From Chthonomonas sp. (GTDB lineage: Bacteria > Armatimonadota > Fimbriimonadia > Fimbriimonadales > Fimbriimonadaceae): a DNA stretch of 64,000 bases. Made by a program: the position numbers and the translations under genes. Positions 28,681 through 44,607 of the stretch are shown here, one piece after another; the stretch's first letter is position 1; each line of letters begins with the position of its first letter. The DNA lies in contig JAEURQ010000002.1 of the NCBI GenBank assembly GCA_016788425.1, positions 558,001-622,000 on the forward strand, read 5' to 3'. The notes beneath the pieces were generated by a model. The model was not told where the DNA came from. It ran no database searches and worked only from the letters and a program-made list of their open reading frames with translations.

Positions 28681-30498
28681 ATGCGACCCACCCTCTGCGT
28701 TGCCCTCCTCGCCGTCGCCGGCGTCTCCATGGCCCAGCGCGCCAATACGCGCGACCTTTACGACAAGGCCGAATACATGATTCCGATGCGCGACGGCGTG
28801 AAGCTGTACACCGCGGTTTACACGCCCAAAAAGCCGCGCGCGGCGACCAACCCCATGCTCATGGAGCGCACGCCCTACGGCTGCTGGCCGTACGGCCCCA
28901 CGCAGTTCGATCAGATCGCCGAGCGCTGGGCGAGCCGCGACTATATCATCGTCAACCAAGACGTGCGCGGGCGCTATCTGAGCGAGGGCGACTTCGAAGA
29001 ATTGCGGCCCCAACTGCAGATTCGAACCGGAAAATGGGACACCGACGAGAGCACGGATACCTACGACACGATTGAGTTTTTGACCAAAAAGGTGGCCGGC
29101 AACAATGGGCGTGTCGGCATTATGGGCATCTCGTATCCGGGCGGCTATGCCGCGCTCGCCGCGCTGAGCGGGCACCCCGCGCTGCGCGCCGTGAGTCCGC
29201 AAGCCCCCACAACGGACTGGTTTGTGGGCGACGATGTGCACCATTTGGGCGCGTTCTTCCTGCAAGATAACGCGAGTTTCATGCAGTTTTTCACGCCGCG
29301 CGGCCCGGAACCGACGCTGGAATCCAAGGGCACGCGCCTGCCCATCGGCTCGGACAGCTACAAGTGGTTTCTCGAACTCGGCCCGATCAAAAACATCGAC
29401 GAGAAGTACTTTAAGTTCCAAAATCACTACTGGACGGATATCATGAACAATCCGGATTACAACCACTTCTGGACGAGCCGGGCCGTGCAACACCAACTGC
29501 GCAACGTAAAGTGCGCGATGCTGAATGTGGGCGGATTGTTCGACGCGGAGGACTGTTACGGCCCGCAAGCATGCTACCGCGAAAACGAAAAGAACAGCCC
29601 GGCGAGCAAAAACCACCTGGTGCTCGGGCCGTGGAGCCACGGCATGTGGGCCTCGCCGAGCGGCGATTCGCTGGGCGACCAAAAGTGGGGAAGCGCGACC
29701 AGCAAATGGTACCAAGACAACGTCGAAGTGCCGTTTTTCGAGACGCATTTGCGCGGCGACGGCAAGGCAAAACTGGCCGAGGCCACGGTCTTTGATTCCG
29801 GCGCAAAGAAGTGGAGCACGTTTACGGTGTGGCCGCCGAAAACATCGGCGGTGAACCTGGTGTTGAATGGCGATCGGACAATTTCGATCGGCGGCGCCGG
29901 GAAGTCCGGCGAGATTTCGTGGACGAGCGACCCCGCGAATCCGGTGCCGTATCAAACCGCGGGCAGCGGCGGCCGCAAGAGCACGTACATGCTCGCCGAC
30001 CAGCGATTTGTGAGCGGTCGCGCGGATGTGATTACGTTCGTTTCCGCGCCGTTGACCAAGCCTCTGACGCTGGCTGGCGACTTGGAGCCGGTGCTGCGGA
30101 TGAAAACGAGCGGCACCGACATGGACGTGATTGTCAAGCTGATTGACCAGTATCCGGACGATGCTCCGACGCCATTTTCGGGCGGCTATCAGATGCTGGT
30201 GCGCGGCGAGGTGCTGCGTGGCAAATACCGCAATAGCCTGAGCAATCCGCGGCCATTTGTGCCCGGCGCGTATGAGGAAGTGCGCTACAAAATGCCGCAG
30301 ATATTGCACACGTTTGCCGCAGGACATCGCGTGGCGGTGCAGGTGCAGAGCAGCTGGTTCCCGCTGGTGGACCGCAATCCGCACAAGTTTTTGAACATCT
30401 ATCAGGCGAACGAGGCGGACTTTGTGAAGGCGGAGATTTCGCTGGCTTGCGGTGGCGGCGCGTCGGGCAGCCACTTGGCGGTCGGCACCCTTCCTTAA
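28681..30498 (+). CDS. Secreted CocE/NonD-type (S15) alpha/beta hydrolase
   Basis: A 605-residue protein with a signal peptide (MRPTLCVALLAVAGVSMA, cut near 18). The catalytic domain has MIPMRDGVKLYTAVYTPK (33-50), ERTPYG, the NQDVRGRYLSEG loop and the nucleophile elbow GISYPGG (Ser151); Asp in VGGLFDAED (near 285) and His in GPWSHGMW (near 320) complete the triad. The C-terminal third is the jelly-roll domain of X-Pro dipeptidyl-peptidase / alpha-amino-acid ester hydrolase proteins. It probably cleaves amino-acid esters or acylated peptides outside the cytoplasm. It starts 186 bases after phhA and is followed by an MFS gene with a 3-base gap. Confidence 0.88.
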   Translation: MRPTLCVALLAVAGVSMAQRANTRDLYDKAEYMIPMRDGVKLYTAVYTPKKPRAATNPMLMERTPYGCWPYGPTQFDQIAERWASRDYIIVNQDVRGRYLSEGDFEELRPQLQIRTGKWDTDESTDTYDTIEFLTKKVAGNNGRVGIMGISYPGGYAALAALSGHPALRAVSPQAPTTDWFVGDDVHHLGAFFLQDNASFMQFFTPRGPEPTLESKGTRLPIGSDSYKWFLELGPIKNIDEKYFKFQNHYWTDIMNNPDYNHFWTSRAVQHQLRNVKCAMLNVGGLFDAEDCYGPQACYRENEKNSPASKNHLVLGPWSHGMWASPSGDSLGDQKWGSATSKWYQDNVEVPFFETHLRGDGKAKLAEATVFDSGAKKWSTFTVWPPKTSAVNLVLNGDRTISIGGAGKSGEISWTSDPANPVPYQTAGSGGRKSTYMLADQRFVSGRADVITFVSAPLTKPLTLAGDLEPVLRMKTSGTDMDVIVKLIDQYPDDAPTPFSGGYQMLVRGEVLRGKYRNSLSNPRPFVPGAYEEVRYKMPQILHTFAAGHRVAVQVQSSWFPLVDRNPHKFLNIYQANEADFVKAEISLACGGGASGSHLAVGTLP

Positions 30499-40295: not shown

Positions 40296-41228
40296 ATGGC
40301 TAGGCAAAAGAACGATGGCTCACGGTTCGGGATCGCCGAATGGTTCGGTCGCGATTTTGCCGGTTTGAGCCAGAGTGAACGAGTTTCGCTCATTGAAGCC
40401 GCCAAATCTCGAACGCAGTCCGAGCGACCAATCTGCCCATTTAGGGCTGATCGTTCGGGCGTATTCAAACCCTGCTCGAAACAGAGCGGCATCTGTTCTA
40501 TCAGGAAAGTTGGAGTTGCGGCTGAAGTAACCGTACATCCTGATAGCAATTTGCGTTGCCTGTGTCCGGTACGGTTTTATCAGAGCAACACTCTGTTGAA
40601 CTGGGTAGGAAGCGAACTCTTGGGGGATCAGAACCCCGAGATGGTGAGCGAAATCCCCTTCCTCAAGTCCCCACGAGGCGAACTTGACGACGAGGTTTTG
40701 GGGAGCGATGGAGCAAGCGTTGGTCGGATTGATAACGTATTGGTTAGTCGAATCGCGGGCCGCATGGAATGGTGTGCGGTCGAAATGCAAGCGGTTTACT
40801 TTAGCGGTCCTGCGTTTTCAGATGACTTCAAGAGCATTGCGGCCACGCCGGACGGAATCCTCCATTTCCCGACAAAGATTCGGCGCCCCGATTACCGTAG
40901 TTCTGGGCCAAAAAGGCTGATGCCACAGCTTCAGATCAAGGTACCGACATTGCGGCGCTGGGGCAAAAAGATGGCGGTTGTCGTCGACGAAGCTTTCTTT
41001 GAGTCGCTCGGCAAAATGGAAACTGTCAGCCATATATCGAACGCCGATATTGCATGGTTCGTTGTTGGGTTCGATCAGGCGAAGGACGGATTCGAACTCA
41101 TGCCTCGGACGGTGCACATGACGACGTTGGAACGAGCAGTCGAGGGCCTCACGAATGGCGTGCCTGTGACCCTGTCGCAGTTTGAGCTTGACATCACCGA
41201 GCGGTTGCGCTCTCGGGCAGCCAACTGA
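40296..41228 (+). CDS. NotI-like restriction endonuclease
   Basis: A 310-residue protein with extensive match to the NotI family. The N-terminal cysteines Cys47 (CPFR), Cys60 (PCSKQSG), Cys67 (CSIR) and Cys88/Cys90 (RCLCP) fit the Fe-S or metal-bound structural cluster of NotI. The nuclease core has Asp146 (GRIDNVLV) and Glu163-x-Gln165 (AVEMQAVYFSG), the D..ExQ variant of PD-(D/E)xK. RRPDYRSSGPKRLMPQ and QIKVPTLRRWGKKMAVVVD are near-identical to the family core. It should cut an 8-bp-class site, but the specificity is unknown. It stands 13 bases after mnmA and overlaps the facing methyltransferase gene by 35 bases. Local G+C is lower than in neighbours, suggesting transfer. Confidence 0.9.
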   Translation: MARQKNDGSRFGIAEWFGRDFAGLSQSERVSLIEAAKSRTQSERPICPFRADRSGVFKPCSKQSGICSIRKVGVAAEVTVHPDSNLRCLCPVRFYQSNTLLNWVGSELLGDQNPEMVSEIPFLKSPRGELDDEVLGSDGASVGRIDNVLVSRIAGRMEWCAVEMQAVYFSGPAFSDDFKSIAATPDGILHFPTKIRRPDYRSSGPKRLMPQLQIKVPTLRRWGKKMAVVVDEAFFESLGKMETVSHISNADIAWFVVGFDQAKDGFELMPRTVHMTTLERAVEGLTNGVPVTLSQFELDITERLRSRAAN

Positions 41229-42288
41229 AATCTCGCGATATCAGGAGCTCCAGCTTTCGTTCATGGTGCGTACTTTTCATCGGAACCAGCCGAGTTTGGA
41301 AGCCGAATTGACGGGCCAAGGACTCAATGAACGGATTGTTATCATAGGTTGCTAACAGCGGGCCTCGGCACTTCTGCATAGCTCCAAACAGCGCTTCGTG
41401 GTCCAGTTCGTGGTGAGAGTAGAGCCTCCTTCCGGCAACCGGATAGGGCGGGTCAACGAAGTGGGCCGTCCTTCTATCTTCGGCTGAGCCCTGAAGAGCC
41501 CGAATGCCATCACCCTCGGTTAGCCGAAACTGGTGTCGCAGTTGGTCGATCGCAAGAATTCGCTTGGCAAGTGTTTCGGGATACCAGCGGCTTGCAATTC
41601 CTTTTCCAGCTTCGCCGGTCTTAACCAGCCCCGCTCCCTGCGCGAGAATTCCTCCTCGGCTCGCGCGATTTCGAATGATGGTTCGAAACGCCTGATCCAC
41701 TTGTTCCGTTGGGTTGCTTTGAAGGATCTCGTTGACCGAGTCCACGTTGAACCTAAAGGTTCGGATTCTATCGCAAAGCTGAGTTCCGCAGCCTTCAAAT
41801 ATTACACGCCACACTACGGCTACATCGGCGTCGAGTTCGACGAGTTCGCTCAGTTCCACAAATCTCTCAAAGACCGCGGCGAGGGAGATTCCCGCCCCAC
41901 CCGCAAACGGCTCCAGAAGTCGAGTAGTTCCGAGTGGAAACGAAGCCATCCATGCTCGGGCCAGCGGAATGAGCCACGTTTTTCCGCCTGGATAGCGAAA
42001 TGGGCTTCGTTGCGGAACCGAGGCAACGTTGACGGCGGGTGCGAACTCAAGGTCGGGGAAAAGGGTCTCCAATTGGGGCGGTTCCTTGATCGCGGTGAGT
42101 TGCGGTTTCGCCTTGCGCTCAGAGTCGTAAGCCGCAATGGAATCCGTGAGGGCAAGCCAGTCGCGTCCTGCTCGTACCCCTTCGATGCGCCCCTCGCGAA
42201 TCAACAAGCGGACGTGCTGGACAGTACACTCCAAGAGTTCTGCCGCTTTATTCGTGGTGATGAGGCCAGCCGACCGTAGGTCTTCCAT
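41194..42288 (-). CDS. D12-class DNA adenine methyltransferase with N-terminal HTH
   Basis: A 364-residue protein. Residues 8-56 are an excisionase/MerR-like helix-turn-helix (ITTNKAAELLECTVQHVRLLIREGRIEG). The rest is a D12 (Dam-type) methyltransferase: motif X PFRYPGGKTWL (96-106), the AdoMet motif FAGGAG (128-133), and the catalytic DPPY (279-282), which signals N6-adenine methylation. Paired with the NotI-like nuclease it should protect the shared site. The HTH sits where autorepressor domains of other methyltransferases (for example M.EcoRII-type) are found, and a palindrome overlaps its promoter. The gene has low G+C for the window. Its 3-prime end overlaps the nuclease gene by 35 bases. 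Confidence 0.88.
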   Translation of the reverse strand: MEDLRSAGLITTNKAAELLECTVQHVRLLIREGRIEGVRAGRDWLALTDSIAAYDSERKAKPQLTAIKEPPQLETLFPDLEFAPAVNVASVPQRSPFRYPGGKTWLIPLARAWMASFPLGTTRLLEPFAGGAGISLAAVFERFVELSELVELDADVAVVWRVIFEGCGTQLCDRIRTFRFNVDSVNEILQSNPTEQVDQAFRTIIRNRASRGGILAQGAGLVKTGEAGKGIASRWYPETLAKRILAIDQLRHQFRLTEGDGIRALQGSAEDRRTAHFVDPPYPVAGRRLYSHHELDHEALFGAMQKCRGPLLATYDNNPFIESLARQFGFQTRLVPMKSTHHERKLELLISRDFSWLPESATAR

Positions 42289-42290
42289 TG

Positions 42291-42330
42291 TTCTCTAGAG
42301 AATATACTAAGAGACGGTCGCAAGAGTCAA
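42291..42330 (-). promoter_or_regulatory. Methyltransferase promoter with overlapping palindromic operator
   Basis: On the minus strand TTGACT (42330-42325) and TATATT (42306-42301) are 18 bases apart. The perfect 12-base palindrome TTCTCTAGAGAA (42291-42302) overlaps the end of the -10 and the predicted start near 42294. The leader before the ATG at 42288 would be only about 6 bases. The layout fits repression by the HTH domain of the methyltransferase itself. Confidence 0.6.
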
Positions 42331-43474: not shown

Positions 43475-44607
43475 GGTTCAGCTGGGAATTGCGGCGTCGA
43501 ACGGGTGTAAACCAAGTCGATCCGCCCCTGCTCTAAGCCGCCCTCAGAGTAGATTTCATAGCTACCCGAGCCAGTCTGAGCGTAAACAAAGTCCTTGCCG
43601 CTCAGCGGATCGTGGCGATCAGCTTCGGCGGTGAAGTCTTTCAGGGCACCCGGCAACCGGGCGTGCTGCCACCGATAAAGCTCGACTTTTGCCATCAGGC
43701 GAGCCAGCCGCAACTGCGTGCGTGACCGTGCCATGACGCTCAGCCAGCCGGTATAGTCCGGCATGAGGTCGTCCAAGAAGCCGACCGTGGGGACGTCGAT
43801 CACCCAGTTCTTCTCAGGTTGCTTGAGAGTCTCAATGGCGCGGCTGCCGACGTCACGAAGTATGGAGATCGCGCTCCCAATTTCTCGCGCCAAGTCTTGC
43901 GGGCTCAGTTCACGCAACTTCTTGCTGGTTTCCGGTTCTTCGCCCTCCGCGTTCACGAGGAATTCCTTGTGCGCGCGAGGATCCTTTTGGAAGTCGGTGA
44001 ACATCTTGATGGCTCCGCCGATCTCGCCCGATATTGCGTTGAGGGTGGATTCGTCGCCTCGCAACATCTGATCAAGTTCGCGGTCGAGCCGCTCCAAGTC
44101 GGGCACGGGCAAGCGCGGAATGGTTCGCGACAACGTCATAAGGCCGACGCCATCGCCGGCAATACCAACCAATCGGAAAATTATGTTCGCATCCAGACGG
44201 CGGCTAAACTTGAGCCCCGTGAGGATGGTGCTAGTTGACTTCTGCCACTGGCCGGCGGCCGCTTCGGCGTAGGCAGTTTCGTACGTGCCACGCAGCAACT
44301 CGCGAAAGTGCGTCAGCTCAGGGAAGGTTGATGTCCAGTCCTCGAGACCGGTACGAGTCGCTGGCTTGCGATTCCCGTCCTCGATGAGCTTGATCATCGG
44401 CTCCATCAAGACGGCGATCTTTTTCGCCTTCTCCAGGACCGGCGCATCCGAGCGCGTCAGTTCGCGCAGATTTTTCGTTTTGGCCATGTCCGCGGCGATG
44501 ACATAGTCTTGATAACCGTTCGTCACGTCTCGCGACGAGAACAATTGCGAAAAGAGACTGGGCCCGGCCTGAGCAAAGACAAGGGCGGCAATGGCGGAGG
44601 TGAGCAT
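43471..44607 (-). CDS. Unknown, probably exported protein
   Basis: A 378-residue protein with a short hydrophobic start (MLTSAIAALVFAQAGPS) that may be a signal peptide. The rest is largely helical (LTRSDAPVLEKAKKIAVLMEPMIKLIED, ELLRGTYETAYAEAAAGQWQKSTSTILTGL, RTQLRLARLMAKVELYRWQHARLPGAL) and ends with a beta-rich patch containing DPLSGKDFVYAQTGSGSYEIYS, the kind of segment seen at the C-terminus of secreted proteins from this group and of Planctomycetes. I recognise no family. It follows the symporter gene with 3 bases between stop and start, so the two are one operon. The stop shares CTAG with aroG. Confidence 0.55.
   Translation of the reverse strand: MLTSAIAALVFAQAGPSLFSQLFSSRDVTNGYQDYVIAADMAKTKNLRELTRSDAPVLEKAKKIAVLMEPMIKLIEDGNRKPATRTGLEDWTSTFPELTHFRELLRGTYETAYAEAAAGQWQKSTSTILTGLKFSRRLDANIIFRLVGIAGDGVGLMTLSRTIPRLPVPDLERLDRELDQMLRGDESTLNAISGEIGGAIKMFTDFQKDPRAHKEFLVNAEGEEPETSKKLRELSPQDLAREIGSAISILRDVGSRAIETLKQPEKNWVIDVPTVGFLDDLMPDYTGWLSVMARSRTQLRLARLMAKVELYRWQHARLPGALKDFTAEADRHDPLSGKDFVYAQTGSGSYEIYSEGGLEQGRIDLVYTRSTPQFPAEP

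Follow-up and report, generated by a model that had tools for sequence, protein, structure and literature searches.

An apparently acquired restriction-modification pair of a NotI-fold nuclease and an HTH-fused D12-like methyltransferase, probably an N4-cytosine rather than an N6-adenine enzyme

The described systems closest to the locus reported here are the restriction enzyme NotI, the methyltransferase M.CbeI, and those restriction-modification systems in which the methyltransferase controls its own gene. M.CbeI has been shown experimentally to be an N4-cytosine methyltransferase acting at GGCC; it carries DPPY and had been mis-annotated as a D12 adenine enzyme (PMC3425538), and its structure is available as 7M6B (PMC8616854). 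Some restriction-modification systems are known to be controlled by their methyltransferase, whose N-terminal helix-turn-helix (HTH) represses its own gene through an operator that covers the promoter (PMC3874152).

The pair of genes described here lies in the window, that is, the whole stretch of 64,000 nucleotides of Chthonomonas sp. DNA that was analysed. A sequence-only reading had described it as a NotI-like nuclease facing an adenine-type methyltransferase. The features of the nuclease gene are as follows.

40296-41228, plus strand: NotI-type restriction endonuclease gene, 310 aa (Pfam PF12183, NotI structure match, aligned residues)
40434-40565, plus strand: cysteines C47, C60, C67 and C90 of a predicted metal site (conservation and alignment with the NotI cysteine cluster)
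40731-40790, plus strand: catalytic core codons D146 (40731-40733), E163 (40782-40784) and Q165 (40788-40790), invariant and aligned with NotI

The open reading frame of the nuclease matched the Pfam family named NotI (PF12183) with an E value of 1.1e-63. When 29 nuclease homologues were aligned, D146, E163 and Q165 were unchanged, C60, C67 and C90 were likewise invariant, and C47 was at least 90% conserved. In an alignment made with intermediates, D146, E163 and Q165 stand opposite D160, E182 and Q184 of NotI, the PD-(D/E)xK-type core being present in the nuclease as D...E-x-Q, and the four cysteines align with cysteines of NotI, as would be expected of a Cys4 metal-binding domain predicted from sequence. 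A KRxxxQxxxK helix is also common to both proteins. The NotI family core read earlier, namely D146, E163-x-Q165 and the cysteine cluster, is thus borne out by Pfam, by conservation and by the NotI alignment. The NotI sequence that we used was identical letter for letter to that of PDB 3bvq, and this protein matched no Pfam family at E values up to 1, PF12183 included; conversely, the profile of the nuclease family did not recover NotI from the PDB. Since NotI was missed by the sequence profile, structures were compared instead. The AlphaFold model of the nuclease (pLDDT 90) aligned with NotI 3c25 over 268 residues with a Z score of 17.7 and 16% identity, and with NotI 3bvq with a Z score of 16.6, whereas the next best match, which is unrelated, reached only 6.9. 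As modelled, the window nuclease has the overall fold of NotI and is a NotI-fold enzyme with NotI as only distant kin, a kinship too remote for the site of NotI to be inherited by default. The Pfam family PF12183 bears the name NotI without matching the NotI protein, and annotation may be misled by this.

The methyltransferase gene faces that of the nuclease and overlaps its end.

41194-42288, minus strand: HTH-D12-like DNA methyltransferase gene, 364 aa, probably of the alpha-class N4-cytosine type (PADLOC, PDB 7m6b, structure)
41443-41454, minus strand: DPPY catalytic motif, residues 279-282, within VDPPY, invariant in 29 homologues and also present in M.CbeI
41194-41228, no strand: convergent overlap of the nuclease and methyltransferase genes, 35 bp (ORF coordinates)

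A methyltransferase with DPPY opposite the nuclease had been reported, and it is there, with VDPPY and a D12 fold; its score with the Pfam D12 model is 15.4 bits, below the cut-off of 22 that sibling proteins pass. When the profile of the methyltransferase family was searched against the PDB, M.CbeI (7m6b) was found at an E value of 6e-15 and no Dam structure was found at E values of 0.01 or less. Among PADLOC profiles the M.CbeI-type one gave 63 bits and that of Dam 15 bits; the top profile was PD-Lambda-5_B, which counts against the m4C reading. The predicted structure also placed M.CbeI first, with a Z score of 24.6 and 21% identity, compared to 22.5 and 14% for Dam. About 35 residues past DPPY there is a (T/S)YD motif, as in M.CbeI, where E. 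coli Dam, the sequence of which was verified against a PDB entry before use, has SNHD. The closest characterised enzyme by both sequence and structure is thus the alpha-class N4-cytosine enzyme M.CbeI, and the sequence profile prefers it to Dam, an m6A enzyme. This likeness favours m4C, short of proof, in the window methyltransferase; against m4C stand the identity to M.CbeI of about 21% and the closeness of the two Z scores, by which structure poorly separates M.CbeI from Dam. On balance the enzyme probably makes m4C, and m6A is an unlikely product. The argument that DPPY means adenine, from which an adenine-containing site had been deduced, does not hold, because the nearest characterised relative is an m4C enzyme with DPPY. 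The DPPY-bearing D12 fold also includes genuine m6A enzymes.

A genome scan yielded 68 relatives of the nuclease, and a methyltransferase of the window type adjoins the nuclease in 48 loci, the window's own counted, from many phyla. The genes overlap tail to tail in 30 of these 48 paired loci, and the 35-base overlap noted earlier in the window was confirmed. The distances among the nucleases correlate with those among the methyltransferases (Mantel r 0.785, a value reached in none of 5000 permutations, and 0.375 for distant pairs). The pair was also found on plasmids and in viral contigs, where the nucleases are more divergent. As both genes recur together in 48 loci across phyla, plasmids and viral contigs, they form one real restriction-modification system, as had been supposed. 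In the viral contigs (L226, L228-L233 and L236-L238) NotI-fold nucleases that are 27-36% identical to that of the window lie beside window-type methyltransferases that are 43-49% identical, and (pro)phages may thus be a vehicle for such systems; no NotI-type nuclease was found in the isolate phage collection. A 4-kb plasmid of Aeromonas veronii (L076, NZ_CP121823.1) has three annotated genes, which are MobC, a NotI-family nuclease and a D12-like methyltransferase. Plasmids of Bdellovibrio and Deinococcus carry window-type methyltransferases (L101:2983-3867 and L102:2974-3915) with no detectable NotI-type nuclease nearby, and in L101 a 452-aa hypothetical gene that overlaps the methyltransferase directly upstream could be another nuclease.

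The partner of the nuclease is not always D12-like, and in the nuclease tree there are at least four changes of partner type. Within a single supported clade, the C5-partnered nucleases of L024, L041, L064 and L025 share 80-89% identity with those of L067, L036, L033 and others, whose partner is D12-like; the C5 identity was confirmed with Pfam at three loci and the remaining C5 labels are from a motif search. The gene vsr, a repair gene for deaminated m5C, adjoins 5 of the 17 loci with a C5 partner but none of the 46 with a D12-like one (Fisher p 0.0009, the counts not being independent across related loci), and it also lies beside one C5 copy on a plasmid. At 80-89% identity, nucleases guarded by C5 and by D12-like enzymes almost certainly recognise the same site, and a site common to the swapped-partner nucleases therefore contains cytosine. 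The swap is proof of C in a shared site and no proof that C is the base which the D12-like enzyme modifies. The presence of m5C partners beside near-identical nucleases also leaves the step from DPPY to N6-adenine, and from there to adenine in the site, unsupported.

In this 2.67-Mb genome, which has Fimbriimonadaceae of the Armatimonadota as its relatives, the pair is flanked by mnmA and by a gene for DAHP synthase. Among the 61 genomes searched overall, the nuclease occurs in just 2 of the 37 of the same family, its own included, and a genome of the same genus has neither the nuclease nor the methyltransferase. The lower G+C that had been noticed was confirmed, with GC3 of 0.59-0.60 in the two genes compared to 0.75-0.81 in their neighbours. 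From this patchy distribution and low GC3 the pair looks recently and horizontally acquired, which fits a mobile module, and the earlier proposal of a transferred module is supported. A clean insertion scar was looked for and not found: upstream of the pair, the order of a dsb-like gene and mnmA is kept in relatives, but aroG is not beside mnmA there. A genome of the same order (G037) retains both genes, tail to tail, in a decayed state with frame shifts and stop codons (L072/L218, G037:C1:205094-206734).

With respect to the recognition site, GCGGCCGC does occur at 29969-29976 and 44255-44262, as had been pointed out, and these 2 copies in the window compare with 6.4 expected from shuffles. 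They lend no support to a site other than GCGGCCGC, nor is their presence evidence against GCGGCCGC as the site, since cognate methylation would protect them and the frequency of the word equals that in relatives without the system. The genome has 189 copies, an observed/expected ratio of about 0.95 with a Markov model compared to 0.71-1.05 in 16 relatives without the system; a reversed-word control (246) was dropped as an expectation because it is not valid. Over 2.46 Mb of the genome, counting candidate octamers singled none out: none of the 256 8-bp palindromes stood out as avoided (lowest z -3.6), and short palindromes are under-represented there in general. Recently acquired systems often leave no site avoidance (Rusinov et al., PMC4687349), so the absence of GCGGCCGC avoidance is uninformative. 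Many 6-bp palindromes are strongly rare in the 2.46 Mb (G000), among them GTCGAC, CTCGAG and CGGCCG at 0.32, 0.36 and 0.56 of expected, and these are possibly traces of other restriction systems. Among the papers searched, none gave a measured site for a PF12183 nuclease. Nothing was inferred about the site from the C5 partners, as their best small bacterial relative in the PDB, M.HaeIII, matches by the catalytic part only. GGCC is read by NotI and by M.CbeI alike, and by analogy a site containing it would be a sensible starting guess. A new specificity is possible and is not implied by the evidence; should the site prove to be new and 8 bp long, the enzyme would be of use as a rare cutter.

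The sequence-only reading had overlooked an HTH at the N-terminus of the methyltransferase, and this directs attention to the DNA around its start codon.

42127-42264, minus strand: N-terminal helix-turn-helix of the HTH_17/excisionase type, residues 9-54 (HTH_17, excise)
42271-42320, no strand: putative autorepressor operator, spanning the ATG (block shared with L002 and L045, upstream of their HTH-fused methyltransferases)
42291-42302, no strand: perfect palindrome of 12 bp, TTCTCTAGAGAA, which overlaps the -10 and the presumed transcription start (sequence)
42301-42330, minus strand: promoter-like TTGACT-18-TATATT of the methyltransferase, 13 bp separating the -10 from the ATG (1 found compared to 0.7 expected from shuffles)

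The N-terminus matched HTH_17 at an E value of 1.4e-5 and excise at 3e-6, both just under the curated cut-offs, and the model predicts helices at residues 12-31. The HTH is limited to the Fimbriimonadaceae copies (window, L002 and L045/L071), the methyltransferases of L002 and L045/L071 being 55-57% identical to that of the window; the other aligned homologues are without it. The arms of the putative operator, CGACCGT at 42271-42277 and ACGGTCG at 42314-42320, are inverted around the central palindrome TTCTCTAGAGAA. In the 2.46 Mb of genome sequence examined, this palindrome has no second copy, and neither does the pair of arms at this spacing. The three HTH-fused copies have in common the block CGACCGT-N9-TATTC-N6-GAA, then the ATG, and then ACGGTCG inside the coding sequence, and the DNA flanking the block is far less conserved among them. 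An N-terminal HTH together with an operator-like inverted repeat over the gene's own promoter is what an autorepressor has, and the conserved block over promoter and start codon suggests, by analogy, autorepression by the HTH-methyltransferase.

Taken jointly, an acquired Type II system with a NotI-fold nuclease, an m4C D12-like partner and HTH autorepression is the explanation that we consider reasonably likely. The pair would then be a Type II restriction-modification system gained by horizontal transfer, whose nuclease, by analogy with NotI a homodimer, cuts a probably GC-rich site that the D12-like alpha-class methyltransferase most likely guards by N4-cytosine methylation, as M.CbeI does at GGCC, and not by N6-adenine methylation. 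The HTH of the Fimbriimonadaceae methyltransferases would bind the inverted repeat that covers the promoter and start codon of the methyltransferase gene, and a rise in the level of the methyltransferase would turn its own synthesis off. A sharper form of this explanation, which does not exclude it, is that the nuclease is an isoschizomer or near neighbour of NotI, with GCGGCCGC or another GGCC-core site protected by m4C. The nuclease has the whole NotI fold, keeps the catalytic core and carries the KRxxxQxxxK helix, all of which agree with this form, as do the GGCC that M.CbeI reads, which is the core of NotI's site, and the m5C partners, which are compatible with an all-GC site; the identity to NotI is just 16%, however, and GCGGCCGC is not avoided compared to the 16 relatives, so that we hold this form to be tentative.

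The sequence-only reading, that a true N6-adenine methyltransferase gives the nuclease a new adenine-containing specificity unlike that of NotI, is compatible with the C5 swap, as one site may hold both A and C, and it draws on a D12/Dam fold and DPPY that are typical of m6A, on public records that label these partners DNA adenine methylase, and on the remoteness of NotI, which at 16% identity misses the Pfam model, so that the site need not be GCGGCCGC. We think it unlikely, as the sequence profile points to a DPPY-bearing m4C enzyme as the nearest relative that has been characterised, and the segment that is SNHD in Dam reads (T/S)YD as in M.CbeI; an extended version, in which the NotI-fold nuclease is a rare cutter of a new site that contains adenine and its N6-adenine methyltransferase doubles as its own transcriptional repressor, is improbable to the same degree. 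The two plasmid methyltransferases without a detectable nuclease nearby would suit chance neighbours, in which an orphan methyltransferase acts at an unrelated short site, but this is strongly disfavoured and very improbable given the 48 loci with both genes, their correlated divergence and the C5 enzymes present where the D12-like partner is missing.

What this locus mainly adds is a probable m4C activity for a widespread family recorded as adenine methylases beside a 'NotI family restriction endonuclease', a natural methyltransferase swap and a putative autorepressor operator. The adenine label is probably wrong for this family, and if it is wrong, predictions of methylomes and recognition sites for the carrier strains are misled. 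The natural exchange of m5C and D12-like enzymes beside nearly the same nuclease is a ready-made test of both the base and the site.

Compared to NotI (PDB 3bvq/3c25, site GCGGCCGC), the window nuclease is alike in whole fold, cysteine cluster, D/E-x-Q active site and KRxxxQxxxK helix; the two are only 16% identical, and NotI differs in having no PF12183 match. M.CbeI shares with the window methyltransferase the Dam-like fold and the RYPGGK, DPPY, RLY and TYD motifs and is its best match in sequence and structure; unlike the window enzyme it has no HTH, the identity is about 21%, and its restriction partner CbeI is a HaeIII isoschizomer; M.CbeI and the window enzyme are not known to have a site in common. 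The plasmid pairs of a NotI-family nuclease and a DNA adenine methylase (pEST4011, pIJB1, Variovorax and Aeromonas) have nucleases 47% and methyltransferases 48-50% identical to those of the window; the partners are called adenine methylase by annotation alone, and on pEST4011 and the Aeromonas plasmids R is followed by M on the same strand, whereas R and M of the window are convergent. Systems of the M.SsoII/Ecl18kI type (PMC3874152, PMC3978073) likewise have an N-terminal HTH on the methyltransferase and an operator over its own promoter, but M.SsoII is a C5 enzyme, whereas the window methyltransferase is D12-like, with a putative operator and convergent R and M. The HTH on this methyltransferase and its inverted-repeat operator are new here, and the regulatory type itself is known.
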